64,000 nt of DNA from Dehalococcoidia bacterium (GTDB lineage Bacteria > Chloroflexota > Dehalococcoidia > Lucifugimonadales > UBA3495). Below, piece by piece: positions 4,745-38,847 of this stretch (within the stretch, counting starts at the first letter, position 1; each line of letters opens with the position of its first letter). The notes beneath the pieces were generated by a model. It was not told the origin of the DNA. It saw only the letters and a list, made by a program, of their open reading frames with translations, and ran no database searches. Location: assembly GCA_022827095.1 (NCBI GenBank), contig JAJDTP010000010.1, positions 1-64,000 on the forward strand, given 5' to 3'. The translations under genes were made by a program, and so were the position numbers.

Positions 4745-5620
4745 ATGACGACAGTAGGCTCCGGCAAGTACACCTACACCCTAGAAGAGAACTGGGCGCG
4801 CCTGCCCGAGGGCATGACCATGGGCAACGCTTCGGCGGTGGCGACCGACTCGCAGGACCGGGTTTACGTGTTCCAGCGCAAGGACCCGCCCGTGCTCATC
4901 TTCGGGCCGGGCGGCAACTATCTGGGGTCGTGGGGCGTGCGCGCCATCGACGAGGCCCACGGCATCTACATCCAGGACGACATCGTCTACATCACTGACC
5001 GCACCGACTCGGTGTGCGTGATCTTCACGTTGGACGGCAAGCCGCTGCAGGTCATCGGCGACCGGGGCGTCCACTCGGACACCGGGTGCGAGGTGCCCGG
5101 CGAGGTTTGCCCGCGCTCGGCGGGGCCGTTCAACTATCCCACCGAGATCGTGCCGGCGCCCAACGGCGACCTGTACGTGTCCGACGGATACCGCAACGCC
5201 CGGGTGCACCGCTTCTCCAGCGATGGACAGCTGAAGCAGTCCTGGGGCGAGCCGGGCAAAGGCGGCCCGGGCGAGTTCCACCTGCCCCATAGCATCGTGG
5301 CGCATCCCAATGGCAATCTCTACCTGTGCGACCGTGAGAACAACCGGATGCAGATCTACTCGCCCGACGGCGAGCATCTTGCCATGTGGGAGGACATGCG
5401 GCGGCCGCTGGACATCTCCATCGACAGCGAGGACAACCTGGTCATCAGCGAGGGCGGGGTGAACGGCATGTCGCCTCGCGTGAGCATCATGGACCCCGAC
5501 GGCAACGTTCTGGCCCGCTGGGATTCGCAGTCGGCGCACGGCAGCTGGGTCGATGTCCACGGCAACATCTACATGGCGCTGGGCGCGCAGGAGCGCGTGG
5601 ACAAGTACGTGCGGCAGTAG
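4745..5620 (+). CDS. NHL-repeat beta-propeller protein
   Basis: A 291-residue protein made of NHL-type repeats (VATDSQDRVYVFQRKDPPV, PNGDLYVSDGYRNARVHRFS, HPNGNLYLCDRENNRMQIYS, EDNLVISEGG) that fold into a propeller. It resembles the lyase domain of peptidyl-alpha-hydroxyglycine alpha-amidating lyase, but no catalytic set can be assigned safely. There is no signal peptide. I chose the ATG at 4745, 7 nt after a good Shine-Dalgarno (AGGGAGG), over an in-frame TTG at 4739. It follows the hydrolase gene by 64 bases and may share its transcript. Confidence 0.8.
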   Translation: MTTVGSGKYTYTLEENWARLPEGMTMGNASAVATDSQDRVYVFQRKDPPVLIFGPGGNYLGSWGVRAIDEAHGIYIQDDIVYITDRTDSVCVIFTLDGKPLQVIGDRGVHSDTGCEVPGEVCPRSAGPFNYPTEIVPAPNGDLYVSDGYRNARVHRFSSDGQLKQSWGEPGKGGPGEFHLPHSIVAHPNGNLYLCDRENNRMQIYSPDGEHLAMWEDMRRPLDISIDSEDNLVISEGGVNGMSPRVSIMDPDGNVLARWDSQSAHGSWVDVHGNIYMALGAQERVDKYVRQ

Positions 5621-5749
5621 GACGCTATCACCCGGTTGTCGCCAGCGTTGTAAATCGGCGATACGCCCCACAACAGAATATTGTTGCGGGGCGCGTCGTT
5701 CTGTTCCTGGATCGTATAAAGAGTTGTTGCAGCCCAGGAGTAGGCCGGT

Positions 5750-6349
5750 ATGGAAACGCCAACCCAATTTACGCAGGATCCGGACAAGGTGATCGAATCG
5801 GTCATTTACATGGCCGAACAATCCAAGGCTGACGCTTACTTCGGCGAACGCAAGGTGTATAAGCTGCTGTATTACGCCGACTGTGAAGCGTACAGGCAGC
5901 ACGGCGCGCCCATCACGGGCACCATGTACGTCCACTATCCTCATGGCCCGTTTCCGGAGAACTGGCAGACGTTGAAAAAAATGATGCTAACGGCCGGCGA
6001 TGTGCAGATATTGGGCAGCGACCCCCGGGAAGGTCGTAAGGATCGCGGACGCAACCTGATTTACCCGCAACGGTCGGTCAGGGAGGGCATCCTTACCCCG
6101 GAAGATTGCGCGATTCTGGCAGCGCAGGTAAAACGATTCGCCGGCTTCAACTTCGCGGGGATTGAAGAATACGTGCAGGAGGAAGCAGGATGGTTTACGA
6201 CGGATGACGGCGACACGATTCCGTATGAGGCGTCCGGAATTTCAGCCCCGCCGTTGAGCGCGGATGGGGTCAGGAGGGGGAACAGCATTGCTGAGAGACG
6301 TGCCCGGCAACAGGCCCCCGTACGAAGTCAGGGAGACAGCCCAGTTTGA
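5750..6349 (+). CDS. Panacea-domain antitoxin (SocA-like / DUF4065)
   Basis: A 199-residue protein with the Panacea domain (formerly DUF4065, SocA-like): the N-terminal helix with VIYMAEQSK, the signature KVYKLLYYADCEAYRQHG, TGTMYVHYPHGPFP and the C-terminal region ILTPEDCAILAAQVKRF. Panacea proteins neutralise many different toxin folds in two-gene toxin-antitoxin systems. A second small gene starts inside its 3' end with a strong ribosome binding site, the usual toxin-antitoxin layout. Its role as antitoxin is inferred from the domain and the overlap. Confidence 0.8.
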   Translation: METPTQFTQDPDKVIESVIYMAEQSKADAYFGERKVYKLLYYADCEAYRQHGAPITGTMYVHYPHGPFPENWQTLKKMMLTAGDVQILGSDPREGRKDRGRNLIYPQRSVREGILTPEDCAILAAQVKRFAGFNFAGIEEYVQEEAGWFTTDDGDTIPYEASGISAPPLSADGVRRGNSIAERRARQQAPVRSQGDSPV

Positions 6350-6587
6350 TGCTGACTGGCGCAGGGAAATCCAGCTTGGAAATCTGAATCCCATGTTGGC
6401 GCCTTCCGATTTGCTGTTCATCAAAATGCTGCTGGCGCAGCAACCCTACCTGGGCAGGTGGCAGCCAGGTACGCCTTACGATAGCCGCACCATAGCACTG
6501 GCCCGGGTCTTCGAGATTGGATATTACGTGGTCGAGGATGACCAAGCCGTTTACCTTGACAGCATCAGCTTTATTGGTGGGAGCTAA
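6288..6587 (+). CDS. Probable toxin partner of the Panacea antitoxin
   Basis: A 99-residue protein starting inside the Panacea gene. The TTG at 6288 lies 7 nt after AGGAGGGGG and is preferred over the ATG at 6264, which has no ribosome binding site; overlap with the antitoxin is then 62 bases. The body (YEVRETAQFDADWRREI, then a helical middle and the terminal strands RVFEIGYYVVEDD and AVYLDSISF) resembles the small RelE/ParE ribonuclease fold. The similarity is weak by eye and the catalytic residues are not assignable. The overlap with a Panacea gene is the stronger argument. Confidence 0.6.
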   Translation: MLRDVPGNRPPYEVRETAQFDADWRREIQLGNLNPMLAPSDLLFIKMLLAQQPYLGRWQPGTPYDSRTIALARVFEIGYYVVEDDQAVYLDSISFIGGS

Positions 6588-6699
6588 TCGGGGCTGTGAG
6601 CAGTGCTTGTGATACAATGCACCGTGCCGCTCGCTGCCAATGCAGTTGAGGGGTCGCTTCACCATCGATACAAGATTCGCTGCAATGCTTGGGTTTAAC

Positions 6700-7059
6700 A
6701 TGAAAGCATCTGAACTCATCACCCCAGAAGTAAACGAAAACATCCCCGAATTCGGTCCCGGAGACACCGTACGGGTCAACTTCCGGATTCGGGAGGGTAA
6801 CCGTGAGCGCGTGCAGGCCTTTCAGGGGGTGTGCATCCGGCGCACCCACGGCACCGGGCCGGCGGCCAACTTCACGGTTAGGCGGATCACCGCCGGGATC
6901 GGGATTGAACGCGTATTTCCGCTGCATTCCCCGCTGATCGAGTCGCTGGAAGTCACGCGGCAGGGTAAGGTCCGGCGAGCCAAGCTCTATTACCTGCGGG
7001 GACGGCAGGGCCGGGCCGCGCGCATCAAGGAACGGACGAGCTACCGCACCAATCGGTAG
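6700..7059 (+). CDS. rplS: 50S ribosomal protein L19
   Basis: A 119-residue L19, which sits at the 30S-50S interface. Clear family motifs are [48 protein letters not shown] and [21 protein letters not shown] chose the ATG at 6700 (MKASELI) because it matches the normal family length; an in-frame codon at 6640 would add an unconserved extension. It stands alone here, without the trmD or rimM neighbours common elsewhere. Confidence 0.96.
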
Positions 7060-7175
7060 GCGACATACCCGAAACGTTGACCGCCGCCCGCTGCCCCATC
7101 CGGCGCGGTTGCGGCGGTTTCGCATTTGCATATCCTGCGACTCACGCGGATCTCGATACAAGGGGTGGATAACGC

Positions 7176-7320
7176 TCACGCGCACCCAGTTTGTCATCGC
7201 GAGGAGCGCAGCGACGCGGCGATCCCGTTCCGGCGGCGGTGTCCGCTGCCCTAAAGAGATTGCCACCCCCGCATCAAGTGCGGAGTCGCAATGACAGGTT
7301 CCAGAAAGCGGGTAGCGTGA
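7176..7320. repeat. Nested-inverted-repeat element, copy left of priA
   Basis: The outer left end TCACGCGCACCCAGTTT (7176-7192) is followed by the GTCATCGCGAGGAGCGCAGC core. The right side carries GAGATTGCC, then GTCGCAATGACAG and a degenerate outer end AAAGCGGGTAGCGTGA. It occupies nearly all of the space between rplS and priA and ends about 20 nt before the priA start. Confidence 0.85.
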
Positions 7321-7340
7321 GGTGGATACGAGGTCGCACC

Positions 7341-9779
7341 GTGAACTACGCCGACGTCGCCATAGACGCTGACTGGATACCACCGGGCAAGACCTTTTCG
7401 TATCGGGTGCCTCGTCATCTTGCGGTGGAACCAGGGCAACTGGTCTGGGTGCAATTCGGCCGCAACATCGTGCAGGGGTTGGTCCTCAGCCTGGCGGACG
7501 CATCGGCGGTATCGGAGGAGGAAACGCGGGACATTCTGCACCCGGTGGAGCCGTCCCCGCTGGTTGGTTCGCTGGGGCTGGAGTTGGCGGCATGGCTGGG
7601 GCAAACCTACCGGTGCTCCCCTTTCGAGGCCGTTGCGCCGATGCTGCCGCCCGGTTTTCGGGCACAACAGCGGTCACGACTGACCGCGATCTCCGGCCTC
7701 GAGGATTCCGGTGAATTGGCGTCTTTCCGTGAAACTACGCAAGTTGCGTGGCGGGAACTGGCCGCCGCCTCCGGAGCCTCGGAGGAAATCACGTTCCTGA
7801 AGCGGATTGATCCGAGCCGCGCCAACGTCGCCCGACGGGAACTGCAGCGTCTCGTGTCCCGCGGACTGGTCCGCAAGGAGGTCAGCCTGCCGCGACCGCG
7901 ATCCCATCGTTATCGCCGTCTCCTGATACCCGGGCACCATCCCGATTCGGGAGGGAAGGAAGTGGCTGCTCCGCAAGCGCGGGCCACTCGGCAGGTGGAA
8001 CTGCTGGCAGCGGTGCGTGAGGCGGGGGCCGGCTACGAGACCACGGGAGTAGGACCCGCGGCGGATGCCCTTCTCCAGCGCGGTCTGGTGGGCGAGGAAT
8101 GGCAGCGGGTGCGCCCCGAGGTTCCTTCGGGGGTTGAGCCGTCGCATCCCGCTCCTGGAGCGCTGACGGCCGCTCAATCGGACGCTGTGGCCAGCGTCAC
8201 CGCCGCGCTGGACGACCCCAGTCTGCTGCCGCGCAGTTTTCTGTTGCACGGCGTCACCGGCAGCGGCAAGACCGAGGTGTACCTGCGCTCCATCGCCCAC
8301 GCGGTGGAGCAAGGTAAGCAGGCCATTTACCTGGTACCTGAGATCTCGCTGACCCCGCAGACGGTCGGCATGGTGAACGATCGCTTCCCCGGCCGCGTCG
8401 CCGTCCTGCACCATCGACTGACTGAAAGGCAGCGGTTCGAGCAGTGGTGGAACATTCGTGACGGGTTGGCCGACGTAATCGTAGGGCCCCGCAGCGCCCT
8501 GTTCGCTCCGACTGTCAATCTGGGCATAGTGATCGTTGATGAGGAGCACGAACCGGCGTACAAGCAGGACGAGCATCCTCCCTATTATCACGCACGCGAC
8601 TCTGCCCTGGCCCTGGCTCGCCGCTGTGGCGCCGTGGTGGTGATAGGTTCAGCCACCCCCGACGTGAGCACGTACTACGAAGCGACGCGGGGCCGGCATC
8701 ACCTGCTGCGATTGCCGGAGCGGGTTCCACGCCACGACGGACACGCTACGCCTTTGCCTGAAATCAGCGTGGTCGATATGCGCCGGGAACTCCGGGAGGG
8801 GAACCGCAGCGTTTTCAGCCGCACCCTCACCGAAGCCCTGGACTCAACGATAGCCAGCGGTCAGCAGGCGATCCTCTTTCTTAATCGTCGGGGCAGTGCG
8901 GCGTTCATGCAATGCCGCGACTGCGGGAGCGTGATCAACTGCAGCCAGTGCTCCGTCTCCTACGCCTTCCACCGCGAGTCGTCTCGGCTGATCTGCCACT
9001 ACTGCAATCGGCAACGGCGATTGCCCCGGGCCTGTCCGCAGTGTCGTGGGGGCCGCATTCGGGAGATGGGCGCCGGCACCGAGACGATCACTTCCGAGTT
9101 GCAGGAGCGCTATCCCGGCGTCGTCGTGGAACGGTGGGACTCGGACTCGGTTCGAAATCCGGCGGAGCTGGAGGCGGCGATGGGCCGGTTGGCCGGCGGT
9201 GAGGCGCAAGTTCTGGTGGGGACCCAGATGGTGGCCCGTGGGTTGGATCTCCCTAACGTCACATTATCCGCCGTGCTGCTGGCCGATCTGGGACTGAACC
9301 TGCCCGATTTTCGCGCCGGTGAAAGGGCGTTTGCCCTGCTCTGCCAAGTTGCCGGGCGGTCCGGCCGGGGCCATGAGCCCGGACGGGCGATTGTCCAAAC
9401 CTACCAGCCCGACCACTACGCTATCGCCGCGGCCGCAGCCCAGGACTACGGGGGATTCTACGGCACTGAAATTGCCGCCAGGCAACTGCAGGGCAACCCG
9501 CCCTTCAACCGGCTCGCCCAGATTGTGTGCGCCGACCTAAGCGTGCGCGCCGCACAACAGACCCTGGGGGAACTGGCCCAGTCCTGGAGGGAACAGGCCG
9601 CGCGTGACGGACGGACCGACATTGACATCATCGGTCCCACCCCGTGCCTGCCGGAGCGCGTTCGGGGCCGGTACCGTTGGCGGTTGTTGCTGCGTGGCCG
9701 CAGGATCTGGCAGTTCCTGGAAGGACGGAGTGTCCCGCGCAACTGCCGGATTGACATCGATCCCGTGCGGCTCGATTGA
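7341..9779 (+). CDS. priA: Primosomal replication restart helicase PriA
   Basis: An 812-residue 3'-5' helicase that restarts stalled replication forks. It has the N-terminal 3'-DNA-end binding domain (FSYRVPRHLAVEPGQLVWVQ), Walker A GVTGSGKTEVYLR, box DEEHEP, a zinc-binding insert with four CxxC pairs (CRDCG, CSQC, CHYC, CPQC) and helicase motifs VGTQMVARGLDLPNV and QVAGRSGRG. I chose the GTG at 7341 since the sequence before it derives from the repeat element at 7176-7320. A second full copy of that element follows the stop codon by 36 bases. Confidence 0.95.
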   Translation: MNYADVAIDADWIPPGKTFSYRVPRHLAVEPGQLVWVQFGRNIVQGLVLSLADASAVSEEETRDILHPVEPSPLVGSLGLELAAWLGQTYRCSPFEAVAPMLPPGFRAQQRSRLTAISGLEDSGELASFRETTQVAWRELAAASGASEEITFLKRIDPSRANVARRELQRLVSRGLVRKEVSLPRPRSHRYRRLLIPGHHPDSGGKEVAAPQARATRQVELLAAVREAGAGYETTGVGPAADALLQRGLVGEEWQRVRPEVPSGVEPSHPAPGALTAAQSDAVASVTAALDDPSLLPRSFLLHGVTGSGKTEVYLRSIAHAVEQGKQAIYLVPEISLTPQTVGMVNDRFPGRVAVLHHRLTERQRFEQWWNIRDGLADVIVGPRSALFAPTVNLGIVIVDEEHEPAYKQDEHPPYYHARDSALALARRCGAVVVIGSATPDVSTYYEATRGRHHLLRLPERVPRHDGHATPLPEISVVDMRRELREGNRSVFSRTLTEALDSTIASGQQAILFLNRRGSAAFMQCRDCGSVINCSQCSVSYAFHRESSRLICHYCNRQRRLPRACPQCRGGRIREMGAGTETITSELQERYPGVVVERWDSDSVRNPAELEAAMGRLAGGEAQVLVGTQMVARGLDLPNVTLSAVLLADLGLNLPDFRAGERAFALLCQVAGRSGRGHEPGRAIVQTYQPDHYAIAAAAAQDYGGFYGTEIAARQLQGNPPFNRLAQIVCADLSVRAAQQTLGELAQSWREQAARDGRTDIDIIGPTPCLPERVRGRYRWRLLLRGRRIWQFLEGRSVPRNCRIDIDPVRLD

Positions 9780-11295: not shown

Positions 11296-12051
11296 TTACT
11301 CCCGAGACTGCCGGCGGCGCAATTCCTCGCGCAGTTGGCGCGCTTCTTCCTCAGCCCGCTCGGCGCGGGCTTCGGCCCGTTCAGCGCGGGTTTCGGCCTG
11401 CTCGGCGCGGGTTTCGGCGGCGGCCAACGCCTCCAACGCTTCTACGAGATCCGGCAGGTATTCCCGCGTAACCGGGTCCCAGAATCGCAGCTGGCGGTTT
11501 TCCCAGTGCAACTCCAGGCCCAGGCTGGGACTGTAGCCGCGCACCAAGCCATCGTTATCGTAGTCGATTGGCAAGGGCCGGTACACGCCGTCTTCCAGCA
11601 CTTCGCCGGCCAGCGGGACATCGTGCCATTGCCCGCCACTGGGGTCGAACCGCCAGTATTCCCTGACCTCCAGGCGCGCGTAGATGTCGCGTTTCGCGGT
11701 GTAGTCATGCCGGCCGGTGCTCGGCGACCCGACTTCCAGTACGAAGTCCGGCGGCTGCCCGACTTCGCTGATGACGTATCCGTTGGCATCTTCAATGAGT
11801 TGAGCGGGAAAGGGGAGATCAAAGGCCGCCACGCAGTCGGGGCGGGGGGAGCGGCGAGCGTCGCGGGCCTCAAAACAAAGATAGCCCTCGCCCGATACCA
11901 GCGTGTTGGGCTGGCGTCGATAGTGGCTGCGCAGAACCTGATCGGTACGGGCGATGTGGGGGCGCTGTTTCATGCCGTCAGGAAGCGGGGGCGGGTCCGG
12001 CAACTCCGTGAGATTGGGATAGGCAGTGGCCGGCCGGGGTTTCGTGGTCAT
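11296..12051 (-). CDS. Uma2-family (DUF820) protein with C-terminal coiled coil
   Basis: A 251-residue Uma2 protein with the PD-(D/E)XK-like core: RPDCVAAFDLP, GQPPDFVLEVGSPSTG, YTAKRDIYARLEVREYWRFDP. The nuclease assignment is from the fold; no activity has been established for most members. The last 45 residues are a heptad coiled coil of repeated ETRAEQA and EARAERA units. The ATG at 12051 overlaps the TGA of the BtuF-like gene (ATGA), with GGGAGG upstream, so translation is probably coupled. It is one of four Uma2 genes in the window. Confidence 0.88.
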   Translation of the reverse strand: MTTKPRPATAYPNLTELPDPPPLPDGMKQRPHIARTDQVLRSHYRRQPNTLVSGEGYLCFEARDARRSPRPDCVAAFDLPFPAQLIEDANGYVISEVGQPPDFVLEVGSPSTGRHDYTAKRDIYARLEVREYWRFDPSGGQWHDVPLAGEVLEDGVYRPLPIDYDNDGLVRGYSPSLGLELHWENRQLRFWDPVTREYLPDLVEALEALAAAETRAEQAETRAERAEARAERAEEEARQLREELRRRQSRE

Positions 12052-12986
12052 GGGGAACCTCCCTGGCCGGATCCGTAAATGCGCCGCGCTCCGGCCTCGG
12101 GGACCATCCCCGAAAACAACTCGGGATGGATCATCTCGGCGAGTATCTCCAGGCCGGTGACGAGCCGAGGACCGGAACGGCTGGTGTAGTTGCTGGCGTC
12201 GATTACGTACACGCGGTCGTTCTGCACTGCGGGAAGTGACGCCCATCCCTCTTTTTCCGTGAGCAGGGGGATATCTTCCATACCCCGGGGCACTTCAAAA
12301 CCGCAGGGCATGACAACGATGACCTCGGGTTGGTTCTCGATGATGGCCTCCCATTCCAGCGGGAAGGAACCCATCTCCTTGTCGCCGAAGGAGTTGGCTC
12401 CCCCGGCCAGTTCAACCATTTCGGGAACCCAGTGGCCGCCGCACATCAATGGGTCGGTCCATTCAAGGTGCAGTACCCTGGGGTGGATATCAGCCAATTC
12501 AGCCCTCTGGGTGACGGTATCGATACGCTCCTGCATCCGGGCCGTGACCTGGTCGGCCATGGATTCAGTTCCGGTTGCGCGGCCCACGCGGCGCACGTCC
12601 TCGAGAACGTCGCCAAGGTACTGCGGGTCCAGGGATAGCACCTCGGGCTGCTTCTCCATGTTGGCGGTGGACTCGGCGACCTGCCGAGAAGAGACCGCTC
12701 AAACCTCGCAGATAGCCTGGGTCAGCAGCAGGTCCGGGTTGGCTGCATCGAGGATATCCTGGTCGATGTGGTAGATACCGAGACCCTCGGCGAGGCGTTC
12801 CGAAATCACGCGGCTGATCTCACCGCTGCTGGGCTGCGTGCCTTCGAAAACGCTGCGCACCACCCATGGCTTGTCTTTAGCCTGGGCCGGGTAGTCGCAC
12901 TCGTGGGTTACGCCGTAGAGCTGGTCCTCCAGCCCCAATGCGTAAACGATCTCGGTGGCGGAGGGTAGAAAAGAACAAATTCGCAT
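12048..12986 (-). CDS. BtuF-like substrate-binding protein, probable selenoprotein (TGA = Sec at residue 96)
   Basis: A 312-residue protein of the cobalamin/iron-type binding-protein fold (Peripla_BP_2, COG0614) read through one in-frame TGA at 12701-12699. The N-terminus [18 protein letters not shown] and [11 protein letters not shown], and downstream [20 protein letters not shown], are typical of the family. There is no signal peptide, so it may be cytoplasmic. Around the TGA the protein reads TQAICEV-TGA-AVSSRQ; from memory of the family this is LTQxxCEVCAVS, so TGA replaces the second Cys of a CxxC, giving CxxU. A SECIS-like hairpin starts directly after it. The gene lies 56 bases after the antiporter gene and ends in an ATGA overlap with a Uma2 gene. 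The alternative is a nonsense mutation. Confidence 0.85.
12664..12698 (-). promoter_or_regulatory. Bacterial SECIS-like hairpin downstream of the in-frame TGA
   Basis: Read on the minus strand directly after TGA: lower stem GCGGU (12698-12694), internal loop CUCUU, upper stem CUCGGC (12688-12683), apical loop AGGUC (12682-12678), upper stem GCCGAG (12677-12672), bulge UCC, lower stem ACCGC (12668-12664). All 11 base pairs are Watson-Crick. The loop starts 17 nt after the TGA. The E. coli fdhF SECIS has an AGGUCU loop at almost the same distance. Confidence 0.85.
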
Positions 12987-29231: not shown

Positions 29232-31553
29232 TCAGACGGGCGTCCGTCTCAGCCGCAGGGAGTTGCTCACCACGCTGACCGAGCTGAACGCCATAGCAAG
29301 GGCGGCCAGTATGGGGTTCAGGAACCCGGCATCGCCGAAGAAAAACCCCAAGCCCGAGGGTACGCCACCCAGCGCGGTGAACACCGGATATAGCGCGCCC
29401 GCGGCCACCGGGATCAGCAGCGTGTTGTAGAAGAAGGCCCAGAACAGGTTCTGCCGGATGGTTCGCATCGTGGTTCGGGACATTCTCAACGCGGTGGCAA
29501 CGCCCATGAGATCGTCACGCATCAGCGTGACGTCTGCCGTTTCCCGGGCGATGTCGGTCCCGCCGCCCATGGCTATCCCGACATTGGCCCGGGCCAGCGC
29601 CGGCGCGTCGTTGATGCCGTCGCCGGCCATCGCGACTGTGTGTCCGTCGGCTTGCATCCTGGCGATGGTATCCGCTTTGTCGGCGGGCAACATTCCGGAG
29701 TGGTACTCGTCGATGCCGCATTCGGAAGCCACCGCCGCCGCAACCTCGGCGCGATCACCCGAGAGCATCACCGTCCGCACCCCCATTTGATGCAGCGCCG
29801 CCACCGCTGCCGGCGCACCGGGCTTCACTGTGTCGGCGACTGCGATGACACCGATGATGCGCCCGGCCAGGGCCACGAACATGGGCGTAGCTCCGCCTGC
29901 GGCGAGTTGGGCGGCCGCCGTGATCAGCTCGGCGTCCGTCGATGCATCGACCTGTTCCATGAGCGCAGCGTTTCCAACCGCTACCCCTTGTTCGGCGACC
30001 ACGGCGGTCACGCCAGCGCCGGCGTGGGCAACGAAATCCGTAGGCGGGGCGACCGCCAAACCGTCGACTTGAGCCCGGCGCATCACCGCGCGACCTATAG
30101 GGTGCTCCGACAGAGTTTCGACTGACGCCGCGTAACGCAGCACGTCGGTCGTGCGAACGCCCGGCGCGGGCATGATGTCGGTGACCTCCGGTTGCCCCGT
30201 GGTCAGGGTTCCGGTCTTGTCCAGGGCAACGACGTCCACGCGATGAGCGGTTTCCAGCGCGGCGGCGCTGCGAATCAGGATGCCCCGCTCCGCGCTTCGG
30301 CCCACCCCGACGATGATGGCGGTGGGCGTCGCCAGTCCCAGCGCGCACGGGCAGGCGATGATGAAAACCGCGACCAGGGTCAGCATAGCGTACCGCACCG
30401 ACGGGTCCGGCCCGAGGAACAGCCACAGCACCGCCGCGGCCAATGCAATCAGGCCGACGGCCGGCACGAACCAGGCCGCGACGCGATCGGCCAGTCGCTG
30501 CACCGGAGCTGCCGAGCCCTGGGCCTCTTCCACCAGCCGGATCACCTGGGCGAGCGTCGTATCCGCGCCCACCCGCGTGGCCCGCATCAGTACTGCGCCG
30601 GTTTCGTTCAGGGTGCCGGCGAACACGGAGTCGCCGACGGACTTTTCGGCCGGCATACTCTCACCGGTCACCGACGACTGGTCGACGATGGTTGCGCCGC
30701 TGGTTACTTCGCCATCGACCGGTATCTGCTCGCCCGGGCGCACGGCCAGCGTGTCACCGGTTTCGACGCTTTCAATGGGCACATCCGATATGGATCCATC
30801 CGCGGCCATGAGGTGCGCGGTTTGGGGCCGCAGGTCCAGCAGCCGTTCGATTGCGCCCGACGTGCGGGACAGGGCACGGGCCTCCAGCCAGCGGCCGAGG
30901 AGGATCAACGCGACGATTATGGCCGCCATGTCGAAGTGCAACTGGTGCCCGGCCGGTGCAGCAAATGTACCGGCAGCGATCAGGCTGATCAGGATCACCA
31001 AGACGCTGTAGCCGTATGCCACCGATGTGCCCAGGCCGATCAGTGTGTGCATGTTAGGCTGCAACCGCCGAATTCCGGCCCAACCCGCGGTGTAGAACGA
31101 CCATCCGGCCCACAGCTGCACCGGTGTCGCCACCGCCCACAGCAGCAGAGGGTACCACCACATGGACAACAAATCGGGCGTCCATGGCAGAGCCGGGAAA
31201 CTGCCCAGCAGCAGCGCGGCCCCGCCCACCGCTGCTACGATCAGCCGGACCCTAAGGCGTTTTTCCTCCCGGGCCCGGGGCCCGTCACTTCGACTGCCGT
31301 CATTGTCAATCGACTGCGGGTTGGTGTCGAGACGGTATCCGGCGTCGGCGACCGCCTTGGCCAATCTTTCCAGATCAGGCGATGCGGCGCCGCCATCGTC
31401 CAGGCTGATGGTTGCCCGCTCGGTCGCCAGGTTGACGCTCACCTCGGTCACGCCTTCGACGGAACGCAGGGCTTCACCCACATGATAGACGCACGCGGCA
31501 CACGTCATCCCGGCAACGGGGAGAACAATGGTGTTTTGGGATGACTGAGACAT
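29232..31553 (-). CDS. copA: Copper-translocating P-type ATPase
   Basis: A 773-residue P1B-type ATPase exporting Cu(I). The N-terminal metal-binding domain has GMTCAACVYHVG (Cys18, Cys21). Transmembrane CPC is in IACPCALGLATPTA (near 401), the phosphorylation site is DKTGTLTTG (near 445), the actuator loop is SSVTGESMPAEKS and the hinge GDGINDAPAL (near 650). The length is typical. It heads a run with a coiled-coil protein and a YHS protein. Confidence 0.95.
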   Translation of the reverse strand: MSQSSQNTIVLPVAGMTCAACVYHVGEALRSVEGVTEVSVNLATERATISLDDGGAASPDLERLAKAVADAGYRLDTNPQSIDNDGSRSDGPRAREEKRLRVRLIVAAVGGAALLLGSFPALPWTPDLLSMWWYPLLLWAVATPVQLWAGWSFYTAGWAGIRRLQPNMHTLIGLGTSVAYGYSVLVILISLIAAGTFAAPAGHQLHFDMAAIIVALILLGRWLEARALSRTSGAIERLLDLRPQTAHLMAADGSISDVPIESVETGDTLAVRPGEQIPVDGEVTSGATIVDQSSVTGESMPAEKSVGDSVFAGTLNETGAVLMRATRVGADTTLAQVIRLVEEAQGSAAPVQRLADRVAAWFVPAVGLIALAAAVLWLFLGPDPSVRYAMLTLVAVFIIACPCALGLATPTAIIVGVGRSAERGILIRSAAALETAHRVDVVALDKTGTLTTGQPEVTDIMPAPGVRTTDVLRYAASVETLSEHPIGRAVMRRAQVDGLAVAPPTDFVAHAGAGVTAVVAEQGVAVGNAALMEQVDASTDAELITAAAQLAAGGATPMFVALAGRIIGVIAVADTVKPGAPAAVAALHQMGVRTVMLSGDRAEVAAAVASECGIDEYHSGMLPADKADTIARMQADGHTVAMAGDGINDAPALARANVGIAMGGGTDIARETADVTLMRDDLMGVATALRMSRTTMRTIRQNLFWAFFYNTLLIPVAAGALYPVFTALGGVPSGLGFFFGDAGFLNPILAALAMAFSSVSVVSNSLRLRRTPV

Positions 31554-33041: not shown

Positions 33042-33078
33042 AAGAAGCCCCACGGTGGGCAATACCGTGGGGCTTCTT
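33042..33078. terminator. Strong bidirectional terminator
   Basis: AAGAAGCCCCACGGT (33042-33056) pairs perfectly over 15 bp with ACCGTGGGGCTTCTT (33064-33078). It lies between convergent leucine dehydrogenase and DUF3179 genes. Confidence 0.92.
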
Positions 33079-33107: not shown

Positions 33108-34484
33108 TCAGCCGGCGCCCTGATACACGACGGTATCGGGGCGGTACACGGCCCACGAGAACCAGAGCTGGCCGATCCGGCCCGGCACCGGGGTCAGTTG
33201 CTCGCCCTCCAGCGGCCCGTGGATGGCGCGGCCGAATATGTCCCACTGACTGCCGGTCTGTTGGTCCACGATGTGACCTTCAGCGTCCGGCGCGAAGGTC
33301 AGCATGTTGCCGTCGGGTCCTCGCGAGGAAAAGATTCCGGCGGTGCCTACGTCCCGTCCTCTGGCTATCGACCCGGAATCCAGAGCGGACGCGGTTCCGG
33401 GCGACCAGAAGACCACGATGTCCTGGCCGGCCACGGATGCGGCGACCACTCGCTCTTCGGCCAGCGTGGTGAACGAGACCGCCCAGGCCTCGTTGCCGCG
33501 CTCCACGGCCGCGACCCGCTCGACGGCCGGCAACCTGGGATCTTTTTCGCCCCGGAACAGGAACGGTTCGCTGCCGGGCCGGTCGTAACCGGCATATGGG
33601 TTCTGCCCGTAGGCGCGACCCGAGTCCGGCCGCGAAAGGACCTGGCCGTCGGGGTGAGCGGCTTTGAAGTCTGCCCAGGATACGATGGACAGGTAAAGTT
33701 GCTCCAGCTTGCGGCCGGCGAAATGTCCGATGACGCCCTCGCCGCCCACTTCCTGCCACCAGGTTTCAGTCTGGCGGTCGTACATCAGCAGGTTGCTTTG
33801 GCGCAGCGCGCCGGTGGTTCCGAAGTCGAGGACCGTTCCGTCAACCGTCCGCCTGTACACGAAGGCGGTGTTGCAGAGCGGTCAAAACGTGATGACCACC
33901 GGCTCTCCCCCCACGGTGTCGTTGACCAGTTCGTGCCAGACCATTACCTGCACGGGGTACGCGCGAACGTCGCCGTTGAGGTCCACGACCTGCACGGGCT
34001 CAAGATCGTCGAGCCAGAGGTCGGCATCGTCAATCGACTCGAACTGCGGGTCGTCGATGGATGGGATACCATCTTTGGGCGGTCCGCCGGTCATGATCTC
34101 GTCGAAAGAGATCGTCGTCCGCGTGAAGTCCGTGTCCCACTGCGCCCGCAGGAGACGTTGGTAGCGCCTGCGGGCCTCCTCAGCCTCGGCGTCGGGAACG
34201 GTTTGCACCATGCTCTCGGGGGAGGACATCAGCGGGGCAGCCGTGGGGAGAGCGGTGGCAGCGGCAGCCATCGCAGCCGTCGGCAATGGCGTGGCGGCCT
34301 CGGCGAGGGCTACGGTGGGCAGGTCGGCAGCCGGCTCCAGGGTTGGGAACGCCTCGGTTGTAGGAGCGAGGGGAGCCGCCCAGGGTTCGCTGTTTAGTCC
34401 CTCTTCGGTGGGGGTGCAGGCCAGGGCCGTGGCTAACAGCAGAAGTATGCCGGCCAACACGAAAAGGCGGCCGGCTAAGTTCAT
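33108..34484 (-). CDS. DUF3179 lipoprotein, probable selenoprotein (TGA = Sec at residue 201)
   Basis: A 458-residue protein read through one in-frame TGA at 33884-33882. It starts with a lipoprotein signal (LFVLAGILLLLATALAC, lipobox LATALAC) and a low-complexity Ala/Pro/Thr spacer, then DUF3179: GDVRAYPVQVMVWHELVNDT, VGGEPVVITF-TGA-PLCNTAF, VDGTVLDFGTTGALRQSNL, MYDRQTETWWQE. In the family as I know it the motif is TFCPLCNT, so TGA replaces the first Cys of CxxC, giving UxxC. A hairpin follows at SECIS distance. It lies 32 bases downstream of a peptide-type permease gene and is likely the last gene of that cassette. DUF3179 has no established function; a redox or metal role is suggested by the UxxC. 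A nonsense mutation is the alternative. Confidence 0.85.
33845..33881 (-). promoter_or_regulatory. SECIS-like hairpin downstream of the in-frame TGA in the DUF3179 gene
   Basis: On the minus strand, 13 nt after the TGA, CCGCCU (33868-33863) pairs perfectly with AGGCGG (33854-33849); the apical loop UCGUGUAC begins 20 nt after the TGA and contains G and U. CCG directly after the TGA can pair with CGG at 33847-33845. The loop is less canonical than that of the BtuF-like gene. Confidence 0.65.
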
Positions 34485-34516: not shown

Positions 34517-35446
34517 TTAGCGTCCTCGCAGACGCGGATCCAAAACGTCGCGAAGGGCGTCGCCGAGGAGATTGAAGCCCATCACAACCGCAAAGATCGC
34601 CACGCCCGGAAAGATGCCGACCCAAGGGGCGGTCAGCACGTGTTCCTGGGCGGCTCGGGTGAGCATTCCGCCCCAACTGGGTTGGTCGGGCGGCGCCCCA
34701 ACGCCCAGGAAGGACAGGGAGGCTTCGATGATGATGGCGAAGCCAAGGTAGTACGTCGCTAGCACCAGATAGATGGCGAAGCAGTTGGGCACGATATGCC
34801 GGAATATGACGCGCCACGGGGGAGCGCCGATGGCCTGCGCCGCCGTTACGTAGTCCAACTCCTTGATGGACAGCACCTGGGACCTCACCGTGCGGATCAC
34901 CGGGGCAATCATCCCGATCACGATGGCAAGGATCACATTGTTGAGTGACGAGCCGAGCACCGCGACAATAGCCAGCGCGATGATCAATCCGGGCAACGCC
35001 ATCAGCGCGTCCACGACCCTTTGCGCCGACATGTCTATGATGCCGCCGGCGTACGCCAGGGCAACGCCGATGATGAAGCTGGCGGTGATTCCGATAAGGA
35101 CGCTCCCGAGCCCGACGTACAGGCTGATGCGGGCCCCGTAGATCAACCTGCTGAGAACGTCGCGTCCCACATGGTCGGTGCCGAGCAGGAACTGGGAATT
35201 GGGCGGTATGTACACCGTTGAACCACCCTCACGACCTTCAGGGAGTTCTCGAGCGCCGTAGGGAGCAAGAACCGGCGCCATAAGTGCAACGATCACTAGC
35301 GCCAGCACCAGGATGCCGCCGATGGCTCCCAGGGGCTTGCGGCGCGTAAAGCGGTTAACCTCCCGGAGGCTGGCTGCGGCCGGCTGCAGCATCCCCGCTC
35401 GCGGTGGGGCGGCTACCTCGGCGCGCTGATTGGTTTGATTCGCCAT
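34517..35446 (-). CDS. ABC transporter permease, DppC/OppC type (cassette 1)
   Basis: A 309-residue inner-membrane permease for peptides or similar solutes. It has an N-terminal OppC_N segment (NRFTRRKPLGAIGGILVLA), the motif FLLGTDHVGRDVLSRLIYGAR, about six helices and the EAA loop (TAAQAIGAPPWRVIFRHIVPNC). The end is LLGDALRDVLDPRLRGR. It closely resembles the second-cassette copy at 38848. I chose the ATG at 35446 (MANQTNQ). Confidence 0.92.
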   Translation of the reverse strand: MANQTNQRAEVAAPPRAGMLQPAAASLREVNRFTRRKPLGAIGGILVLALVIVALMAPVLAPYGARELPEGREGGSTVYIPPNSQFLLGTDHVGRDVLSRLIYGARISLYVGLGSVLIGITASFIIGVALAYAGGIIDMSAQRVVDALMALPGLIIALAIVAVLGSSLNNVILAIVIGMIAPVIRTVRSQVLSIKELDYVTAAQAIGAPPWRVIFRHIVPNCFAIYLVLATYYLGFAIIIEASLSFLGVGAPPDQPSWGGMLTRAAQEHVLTAPWVGIFPGVAIFAVVMGFNLLGDALRDVLDPRLRGR

Positions 35447-35510
35447 GAGTACGAACACTCCTCACGGAACAACGGCCATAGAACGCAGAATGTCCCTTTA
35501 CGCCCGCAAC

Positions 35511-36473
35511 CTACGAGTACCTGATCCTGGGGTCCAGTATTCCGTACAGGATGTCGATGATCAGGTTCAACAACAGCACCACGGCGGCGGCCAGCAGGAC
35601 AACGCCCTGAACGACGACGAAGTCACGGTGGATGATGGCGTCGATCAGATATCGTCCGACACCGGGTATCACGAAGATCGATTCGATGATGATTGTGCCG
35701 CCCAGCAGTCGACCGAATTGATAGCCGGAAACGGTGATCACTGGCAAAAGGGCGTTTTTCAATGCGTGGCGACCCACTACCATCCACTCGTTCAGTCCCT
35801 TGGACCGGGCGGTTCTCATGTAGTCTTCCCGCATCACCTCCAGCATGGCGGAACGGGCCACCCTGGCCGTAAATGCCATGTCATGAAAAGCTAGAACCAG
35901 CGCAGGGAAGATCAACTGCTGGATGTTGGTGAAGGGGTCGCCCCATAAGGTAGCGTAGCCCAAGGGAGGCAACCAGCCAGCGAAATAGGTCAGGCCGTAG
36001 ATTACCAGGATGCCCAGCCAGAAAGTGGGTAGAGCTATGCCCACCAGCGCCAGAAGCCGGCTGATGTGGTCCAGGAATGAATCCTGCTTGACCGCAGATA
36101 ACACTCCTAAAGGCACGGCGGCGATGAAGGCCAGCACGATTGCCAGTATCGCCAGTTCAAGGGTGATGAAGAACCGGTCCTTCAGGTCATCCAGGACCGG
36201 GGTTCCGTACCAGACCGAGTCGCCAAAATCACCCTGGAGGATTTTCCACAGCCAGTCGCCGTACTGGATGTAAACCGGACGGTCCAGCCCGAGTTCTCGC
36301 TGAACGCGTTTGATGTCCTCTTCGGTGACCTTGCCGCCGTCGCCCTCCTCGCCCGTCAAGATCATCATGGCGGCGTCGCCCGGAACGATCCAGAAGAGGC
36401 CAAACACCAGGATTGTGGCGAGCAGTATAGTGGGTATGAACAGCAGGCCCCTACGGGCTATGTATGCGTACAC
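35511..36473 (-). CDS. ABC transporter permease, DppB/OppB type (cassette 1)
   Basis: A 320-residue permease partner of the DppC-type protein. The N-terminus YIARRGLLFIPTILLATILV, the family signature (RVQRELGLDRPVYIQYGDWL) and the EAA loop (RTARSKGLNEWMVVGRHALK) are clear, ending GILDPRIRYS. It lies between the binding protein and DppC genes, all on the minus strand. Confidence 0.93.
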   Translation of the reverse strand: MYAYIARRGLLFIPTILLATILVFGLFWIVPGDAAMMILTGEEGDGGKVTEEDIKRVQRELGLDRPVYIQYGDWLWKILQGDFGDSVWYGTPVLDDLKDRFFITLELAILAIVLAFIAAVPLGVLSAVKQDSFLDHISRLLALVGIALPTFWLGILVIYGLTYFAGWLPPLGYATLWGDPFTNIQQLIFPALVLAFHDMAFTARVARSAMLEVMREDYMRTARSKGLNEWMVVGRHALKNALLPVITVSGYQFGRLLGGTIIIESIFVIPGVGRYLIDAIIHRDFVVVQGVVLLAAAVVLLLNLIIDILYGILDPRIRYS

Positions 36474-36557: not shown

Positions 36558-38408
36558 TTACGGCTGATAACCGGTTTCGGAGGGTTGCTCACGGTCCGGG
36601 TCGAACCAGACGTGGTCCCATTTGTGAATTTGCTGGACGGTGGGCGGCAGGTGGAAGTTCCGGATGCGGTAGTCCAACGCACCGCCGGCTCCTCCCCAGA
36701 AATACACTACCAGGTGGCTGCTACCGGTGTGTAGTATGTCAGCGATTTCCTCCAGGTGACCCTGGCGGACGCGCTGGTCGATAGCCCGGTTCTGCAAGTC
36801 GATCAACTCATCGATCCGGTCGTTTTGCCAATTTTGCGGGTTGCGCAGAACGTCCTGCAGATAGAATTGGTTGAGAATGTCCGCCGGGTCGGTCAGGATG
36901 ATGCCCGTTCCGACGGTGGAGATTTCGTGCGTTCCGTCTCGCATAACGGCGTACATGGTCGCCAGATCGTTGGGAACGATTTCGATATCGATGCCCACAT
37001 CCTGACGCAACTGCTCGCCAGCGACTTCCGCCGCCGGCAACGTAGGAATAGCGTTGCGGGTGTTCATTTTCACGGATATGCCGTCAGGGTATCCGGCTTC
37101 GGTCAGCAACCGCTTGGCTTCCGCAATCGCGGCGGTGCGATCTTCGGTAAATGCCGGATGGTTAGCGCGTAGTTCGTCCAGATCCTCGACCACCCCTGGC
37201 GAGAAGAAAGTGCCGGGTTTGCCAAAGCCTCTGACCGCACGCTCGATGCCCAGATCCCGGTCCAGGCCCAGGTAAAAGGCCTGGCGAACCCGCTCGTCGT
37301 CAAACGGTGGCTTGGCATTGTTGAGGAAGAACGCTTCGAAACCGGCGCTGGGAAGGATCAGGGCTCGTACCTGGCCGTCGGTCTCCTCTTCCAACACCGC
37401 CATGGCTTCGGGGCGGTTGACGCCGGTAAATGGATTGAAGGTTCCCAGCACCTGGCCGGCTTGCAGTGCGGCAATCCGGCGAGCTGTATCAGGGATGAGG
37501 TGCACGATAATGCCATCGAAGAACGGGCGACCTTCCTTGAAGTACGTCTCGTTGCGCGCGAAGGTGTAGCTCACGTCCTTCTGCCACCCGTCGAGCAGCC
37601 AGGGGCCGGAGCCGATCAGGTTTTCCGGCTGGTTGGCCTGCTCCTGCGTCAGATCTTCCGCGATGTGCTTGGGGTACATCTTCATGTAGTCCGACGCCAG
37701 GTTCGGCATGAAGGTGGGAGCCTGGTACTTCAGGGGCACGCGCACAGTCTTGTTATCGATCACCTCGGCGGTTTGATGCTCATAAAACGCGCGGAGGAAT
37801 CCGGTGCGCGCCCGCTGAGCCCCTGGCAGGGTGATGCGGTCAAGGCTAAACACCACGTCCTCCGCGGTCACCGGCATGCCGTCCGACCAAGTGGCGTCCT
37901 TCAGATGGAACACGAACTCGGTACCGTCGTCGCTGACTTCCCATGTTTCGGCCAGGTCACCGATAATTTCGCTGGGCTTGACCGGGTTGTACTCGACCAG
38001 TTGGTTGAACCGGGGGCTGGAAGGCATCAGGGTGGTGTTGAGGGAACCACCGTAGTGGACGTCCCAGAACCCCGGGTTGCTGTTGCCAACCATGGGGAAC
38101 GTGCCACGGTAATGCTTGCCCTCGCCTTCTTGCCACCAGTCCGGGCGTTCGTCGATTGCCACCGGTGTCGGGACCGGTATAGCGGTTGGCGTTGCATCAA
38201 GAACCCGTGTCGGCATAGGCGTGAACGTCGGGGTCGGGGCAGCCGGGGCCGAACTACCGGAGGCCGCAGGCTGGGACTGTTCAACCTGGCTGGGGGCGGT
38301 GCTGGGCTCGGGCGCGGTGGTTCCACCGCAGGCCAGCCCGACTACCAACAGGGCTGCGCAGCTCACGAGCAACAACCATTGGGGTCTCCCGATTCGTCGG
38401 AACTTCAT
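36558..38408 (-). CDS. ABC transporter solute-binding lipoprotein, family 5 (cassette 1)
   Basis: A 616-residue SBP_bac_5 protein (DppA/OppA type). It has a lipoprotein signal (LLVSCAALLVVGLACGG, lipobox LVVGLAC), an Ala/Pro/Thr-rich spacer, then the binding fold (LAETWEVSDDGTEFVFHLKD, TWSDGMPVTAEDVVFSLDRI). The ATG at 38408 removes an unlikely longer leader. Peptide is only one possible ligand; the family also binds nickel, sugars and opines. No ATPase gene follows. Confidence 0.92.
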   Translation of the reverse strand: MKFRRIGRPQWLLLVSCAALLVVGLACGGTTAPEPSTAPSQVEQSQPAASGSSAPAAPTPTFTPMPTRVLDATPTAIPVPTPVAIDERPDWWQEGEGKHYRGTFPMVGNSNPGFWDVHYGGSLNTTLMPSSPRFNQLVEYNPVKPSEIIGDLAETWEVSDDGTEFVFHLKDATWSDGMPVTAEDVVFSLDRITLPGAQRARTGFLRAFYEHQTAEVIDNKTVRVPLKYQAPTFMPNLASDYMKMYPKHIAEDLTQEQANQPENLIGSGPWLLDGWQKDVSYTFARNETYFKEGRPFFDGIIVHLIPDTARRIAALQAGQVLGTFNPFTGVNRPEAMAVLEEETDGQVRALILPSAGFEAFFLNNAKPPFDDERVRQAFYLGLDRDLGIERAVRGFGKPGTFFSPGVVEDLDELRANHPAFTEDRTAAIAEAKRLLTEAGYPDGISVKMNTRNAIPTLPAAEVAGEQLRQDVGIDIEIVPNDLATMYAVMRDGTHEISTVGTGIILTDPADILNQFYLQDVLRNPQNWQNDRIDELIDLQNRAIDQRVRQGHLEEIADILHTGSSHLVVYFWGGAGGALDYRIRNFHLPPTVQQIHKWDHVWFDPDREQPSETGYQP

Positions 38409-38847
38409 TGGCGAACCCTCCCGATGCAAGTAGTTGGAAAGTGGGCAACTGGACAAGCGTCAGCCGCCTGGTATCGCTGGCTAGACTGGGTCGGCCAGTG
38501 TGGGGGGATGCTACTTACAAGGTTGCCGCTTGTCAAATGGTGATTGTCAACACCGTGGCAGGCTCACGCGCACCCAGTTTTGCTAGAAGTATCATTGAGA
38601 GCGAAGCGCGGCAATCTCGTCAGGGCAGCGGACGCCGTCGCGGGAACGGGATCGCCACGTCGCTGTGCTCCTCGCGATGACAAACCGGGTACGCGTGAGC
38701 GTGGCAGGATAAACATCGGTTACGAGGGCTCCTTGATAGATCACAACATCGTACCGATGAGCGATCAAAAAGCCGTCCCGACACATGGCTAGCGTCGGGG
38801 CGGCTGACTATCCGATTGGACGATTCTGGGCTGTTTCCGGTGGGTGG
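38409..38847. other. Intergenic region between the two ABC cassettes
   Basis: There is no gene here. It holds the upstream region of cassette 1 and a nested-inverted-repeat element (38564-38698, listed separately). The rest, 38700-38847, has no feature I can name apart from being the 3' flank of cassette 2. Confidence 0.6.
38564..38698. repeat. Nested-inverted-repeat element between ABC cassettes
   Basis: The outer ends TCACGCGCACCCAGTTT (38564-38580) and AAACCGGGTACGCGTGA (38682-38698) are inverted repeats with two mismatches. The inner parts are ATCATTGAGAGCGAAGCGCG and CTCCTCGCGATGACA. Confidence 0.9.

Follow-up and report, generated by a model that had tools for sequence, protein, structure and literature searches.

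Selenoproteins of the DUF3179 family were reportedly first described by Zhang and Gladyshev in 2007, in a study of the deltaproteobacterial symbiont of Olavius algarvensis. Two reviews, of 2022 and 2026, tabulate DUF3179 (pfam11376, UxxC/T) as a prokaryotic selenoprotein family and credit it to Zhang and Gladyshev 2007 (PMC9312934, PMC13188914). Because both list it, the gene described here, which lies in a 64,000-nt stretch of DNA from a Dehalococcoidia bacterium (contig JAJDTP010000010.1; the window), is a new member of a family already known; the preliminary description of this DNA, which did not know DUF3179 as a selenoprotein family, was mistaken on this point. Like the listed family, the gene belongs to PF11376 and carries a UxxC motif (UPLC). 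It differs from the family as reported from the Olavius algarvensis symbiont in its Dehalococcoidia lineage, its several selenocysteine (Sec) paralogues and a measured covariation of the SECIS hairpin. New here are the many Sec paralogues across the order, with four or more changes between Sec and Cys on a tree, an internal duplication, and a predicted Rieske-like fold of each half. The literature searched, which was covered in part, contains no statement of a DUF3179 duplication or Rieske-like fold, and the word "Rieske" is absent from the 2026 review (PMC13188914). Until now mostly an entry in tables of selenoproteins, the family is common, and present in multiple copies, in a large Dehalococcoidia order.

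The gene and its surroundings are listed in Table 1. In the translation of 33108-34484 (minus strand), the residues around the TGA codon are VVITF-U-PLCNTAF. PF11376 matches across the TGA over its full length (model positions 1-292 of 292) at 324.7 bits against a curated cut-off of 27 (E 7.8e-97); both halves therefore lie within one DUF3179 domain, and the reading frame is conserved downstream of the codon. The final TGA, at 33110-33108, is a true stop, and the Pfam domain and the homologues stop just short of it. A search of NCBIfam gave no match. A standard bacterial gene call would split the gene in two at the internal TGA. The preliminary description had placed an in-frame TGA at 33884-33882 between intact halves of a DUF3179 protein; its coordinates and motif were exact, the family assignment is borne out by the full-length Pfam match, and the frame, whose loss after the TGA it had named as contrary evidence, is kept.

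Table 1. Features of the DUF3179 locus, in window coordinates
Feature	Position	Strand	Basis or remark
DUF3179 gene, almost certainly for a selenoprotein	33108..34484	minus	458 codons, one in-frame TGA; PF11376 match
Predicted signal peptide with lipobox, ...LLLLATALAC, Cys23	34416..34484	minus	sequence; lipobox pattern match
First repeat, predicted Rieske-like fold, with UxxC	33621..34019	minus	AlphaFold2 pLDDT 95.1, VIA-align
In-frame TGA, putative Sec codon, residue 201, U of UxxC	33882..33884	minus	TGA or Cys codon in homologues
UPLC motif (Sec201, Cys204)	33873..33884	minus	UxxC or CxxC in 83/83 rows of alignment A2
Putative SECIS hairpin, CCGCCU-UCGUGUAC-AGGCGG	33849..33868	minus	14-33 nt after TGA, 8-nt loop; conserved place, covariation
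Second repeat, predicted Rieske-like fold, without UxxC	33135..33527	minus	HHalign to first repeat; VIA-align Z up to 7.7 for model residues 230-349
Terminator-like GC-rich hairpin, AAGAAGCCCCACGGT/ACCGTGGGGCTTCTT	33042..33077	minus	after gene, between convergent genes; read from sequence
ABC transporter permease, OppC/DppC type	34517..35458	minus	ends ~33 nt upstream of DUF3179 gene
ABC transporter permease, DppB type	35511..36473	minus	
Solute-binding protein, family 5	36558..38456	minus	
Heavy-metal P-type ATPase with HMA domain	29232..31553	minus	~1.5 kb past DUF3179 gene end

To follow the TGA column among relatives, DUF3179 genes were aligned from the family of the source genome, where 47 of 50 genomes have at least one. 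The column has TGA in 69 rows of this set and TGC or TGT in 39, the other rows being second-repeat matches or gaps; since some loci are duplicated among the rows, distinct genes were counted by the DNA flanking the codon, which gave 59 with TGA and 38 with Cys. Every same-genus orthologue found has TGA at this column, as do several paralogous subfamilies, and it exchanges there with Cys only, with no other residue. Among named organisms of many phyla (80 loci), 83 matches have Cys and 4 have TGA, two of the four (L133 and L134) being same-genus genes already counted. The closest named relatives, at 91% and 89% identity, are OX638345.1 of an uncultured Dehalococcoidia bacterium and the Chloroflexota MAG RHO3_bin_54, respectively. 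A tree of 174 sequences, made with the site masked by a quick method under a simple model, has at least four Sec/Cys switches that are forced by its starred branches. Many putative Sec paralogues of DUF3179 are present across the source Dehalococcoidia order. The preliminary description had assigned the TGA to the first Cys of a CxxC, and the alignment has TGA or Cys at that column; unrelated residues, which it regarded as evidence against a selenoprotein, were found in none of the homologues aligned.

Several other DUF3179 arrangements were encountered. The source genome has a second DUF3179 gene about 35 kb distant (G000:C3:68086-69009; locus L061, 4071-5066, minus strand), with TGA at the same column and belonging to the UTLCGTG subfamily. 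Three tandem DUF3179 genes occur at L192 and L199 (~4990-8510, plus strand). At L173, L184 and L190 (~6100-7330, plus strand), relatives that adjoin a normal copy have DPRTN instead of CPLCN and so lack the redox pair. One TGA form (UPLCNT; L165, 1914-2939, plus strand) comes from a MAG with the label Nitrospinota and falls apart from the clade of the source gene on the tree. TAG-bearing relatives were considered as a second recoding and rejected; where they can be aligned, the site is Cys and the TAG is elsewhere.

The hairpin downstream of the TGA lies exactly where the preliminary description had put it, with the 6-bp stem and 8-nt loop given there. For each gene, the longest Watson-Crick stem about 10-37 nt after the codon was compared with that in 300 synonymous recodings. 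Perfect stems with 6 or more pairs (6-7 bp) are found in 50 of the 59 TGA genes, in none of the 38 Cys genes and in about 3% of the recodings. For the source gene alone, 4% of synonymous recodings match its hairpin, and the gene contains two further 6-bp hairpins; by itself this hairpin is weak evidence, while across relatives the pattern is far beyond chance. The stem sequences differ by subfamily (CCGCCU/AGGCGG, GCGCCU/AGGCGC, CGGGCAU/AUGCCCG, CCGGUC/GACCGG and CYGGAAU/AUUCCRG) and their place is fixed. Two alignments, one for each stem register suggested by the folds, were examined for covariation. The 7-bp register has 91.6% of its cells paired and shows 30 two-sided changes, a count equalled in 0 of 500 shuffles, and in the 6-bp register of the source gene 100% of cells are paired with two-sided changes in 4 of 6 pairs, although these cell counts are not independent events because many arise from few subfamily splits. 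Registers slid from the 7-bp register pair at most 58% of cells. Neither alignment shows any variation at a G and a U of the loop (columns 25 and 26), which is owed in part to a conserved valine codon. An Rfam search returned no family at gathering score. The covariance test that the preliminary description had proposed thus found stem pairs that covary, in a hairpin confined to the TGA forms and, as judged from sequence, this hairpin is a bacterial-type SECIS.

The source genome also encodes the selenocysteine machinery: tRNA-Sec with the anticodon UCA (66 bits), SelB (355 bits), SelA (541 bits) and SelD (376 bits), the complete set of sel genes for which the preliminary description had suggested a search. 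Its SelD gene (G000:C20:25694-26614, locus L131) carries an in-frame TGA of its own, and SelD is therefore probably a selenoprotein too. SelA scores above cut-off in 43 of the 50 family genomes, most of those without it being incomplete, and is present in 100 of 118 sampled genomes of the order; among the matches listed, it was not found in at least five order genomes that have the TGA form (G075, G084, G104, G127 and G154; 74-91% complete). In the proposed mechanism, SelB and Sec-tRNA(UCA) would insert selenocysteine at UGA codon 201, and the SECIS hairpin 14-33 nt downstream would guide this decoding.

Because the TGA is internal to DUF3179 and shares its column with Cys, and because a covarying SECIS and a full Sec machinery accompany it, we regard the gene product as almost certainly a selenoprotein, in agreement with the preliminary description; that it is both a selenoprotein and exported is very likely. 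An open frame by itself would also fit a changed code, in which this lineage reads UGA as some other amino acid, or readthrough without selenium, but we consider this highly improbable: UGA is still a normal stop, at which the DUF3179 gene itself ends, the exchange is with Cys alone, the genome holds tRNA-Sec (UCA), SelA, SelB and SelD, and only TGA genes have the hairpin. A lone in-frame stop also has the look of a broken gene, as do the extra stops seen elsewhere in some DUF3179 family members, but sequencing error, or decay of the gene through a nonsense mutation, was rejected as having a negligible chance of being correct, on the conservation of the TGA at one column in same-genus orthologues and paralogous subfamilies, with the frame conserved past it and a covarying hairpin behind it.

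The predicted product begins with a signal peptide and a lipobox pattern, and 11 of 12 same-genus orthologues have a lipobox in the corresponding position; the DUF3179 selenoprotein is probably exported and lipid-anchored, as had been proposed before. On profile comparison, the conserved part that follows consists of two homologous repeats, which HHalign aligns with each other at E 6.2e-22 and which mark an internal duplication; UxxC occurs in the first repeat only. In 83 sequences close to the source gene, H86, E87, N90, D91, C/U103, C106, D138 and W145 (model numbering) are invariant; in a wider subfamily set the Glu, the Asn, the Asp and both Cys/Sec positions are still invariant, and the His is not.

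From the motif and the neighbouring genes, the likely role of the protein is extracytoplasmic thiol/selenol redox chemistry. The first repeat alone holds the putative redox pair Sec-x-x-Cys, after an HExxND segment, and this pair most likely would cycle between selenol/thiol and selenenyl-sulfide in a protein sitting at the outer surface of the cell membrane. In other phyla, glutaredoxin, a thioredoxin-fold protein, a DsbD_TM/CcdA-like protein and a TlpA-like lipoprotein are each found nearby in 4-5 of ~80 loci, a hint of a redox role. In the source genus the gene has a peptide-type ABC transporter and a metal P-type ATPase as neighbours, and neither suggests thiol redox. The OppC/DppC-type permease gene is probably co-transcribed with the DUF3179 gene, and a related permease adjoins it at eight further loci in seven genomes of the genus, with L049 and L134 representing the same place. 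The HMA-domain ATPase lies about 1.5 kb past the gene end, in an order kept in L133, and together with the soft-metal-like UxxC and the invariant His, Glu, Asn and Asp shortly before it in the sequence, it would suit a metal site, for instance in a chaperone or sensor of copper or mercury, in place of a redox couple. However, a convergent Glu/Leu dehydrogenase gene intervenes before the ATPase, the ATPase is seen in only one nearby relative (though most loci are too short to reach its place), and thiol-redox proteins are among the neighbours in other phyla. We therefore consider a metal site unlikely and favour thiol/selenol redox as the function of the DUF3179 selenoprotein, with confidence and doubt in equal measure.

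Structure prediction with AlphaFold2 gave a pLDDT of ~95, both for the two repeats together and for the first one by itself. When the model of the pair was compared with the PDB using VIA-align, the best 50 rows were all Rieske-fold proteins (Z up to 7.7), and Rieske-fold chains matched model residues 72-172 and 230-351 separately; the first repeat alone reached Z values of up to 8.9, with most matches spanning 90-98 residues at 2.4-3.6 A. At the sequence level, HHalign profile comparison found DUF3179 and Rieske domains not to be homologous in sequence, 13 DUF3179 members scanned permissively against Pfam gave no Rieske match, and the PDB contains no sequence relative of DUF3179. Because profile homology is absent and the Foldseek E-values for Rieske-fold matches of the predicted models are only 0.03-0.07, the resemblance is structural only, and because of these same E-values we say that each repeat is probably, and not certainly, Rieske-like in its predicted fold.

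By fold, the first repeat best matches NirD, the small subunit of nitrite reductase (PDB 3c0d, 2jo6 and 4aiv; Z 8.9, 97 residues, rmsd 3.6, Foldseek probability 1.00, identity 8%). NirD likewise has a Rieske-like fold without cluster ligands, and is a single cytoplasmic domain without CxxC; DUF3179, in contrast, is a tandem pair, is predicted to be exported and has UxxC. Rieske ferredoxins (PDB 3gce and 2qpz) match the predicted fold over ~92-94 aligned residues (Z 8.8-8.9), but DUF3179 has neither their C-x-H...C-x-x-H ligands nor profile-level similarity to them. An earlier placement of UxxC on Rieske box II (CPxH) was dropped, as the motif spacing puts box II at the later DRQT segment and UxxC upstream of it. 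With Rieske-fold chains as the best matches of both halves, DUF3179 might be supposed to transfer electrons as a Rieske [2Fe-2S] protein in which Sec is one of the cluster ligands. This is very doubtful, as the ligand motif is found in 0 of 96 DUF3179 sequences and in 21 of 21 control Rieske domains and, by motif reading, an invariant Asp and a Thr or Ser occupy the Cys and His places of box II and UxxC lies upstream of both Rieske boxes. Under the preferred thiol/selenol redox reading, the mature protein would consist of two predicted Rieske-like beta domains without the [2Fe-2S] ligand motif. More specifically, we tentatively propose that DUF3179 is a tandem cluster-less Rieske fold whose redox site, Cys-x-x-Cys/Sec-x-x-Cys, lies at another place on the scaffold. 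If this is true, the fold was previously unrecognised for selenoproteins, and with DUF3179 a new type of thiol/selenol redox protein would act outside the cytoplasm, found in many phyla, with Sec forms strongly expanded in one Chloroflexota order. The predicted Rieske-like tandem fold and the invariant HExxND and UxxC residues make DUF3179 a testable redox or metal-binding hypothesis.

Another known kind of exported selenoprotein, the BtuF-type cobalamin-binding protein with CxxU, has a candidate in the same window. A Peripla_BP_2 gene at 12051-12986 (minus strand), probably the first selenoprotein candidate of the preliminary description, has an in-frame TGA at 12701-12699, a CxxU motif and a 6-bp hairpin downstream; it fits the listed BtuF-type selenoprotein, which, unlike DUF3179, belongs to PF01497.
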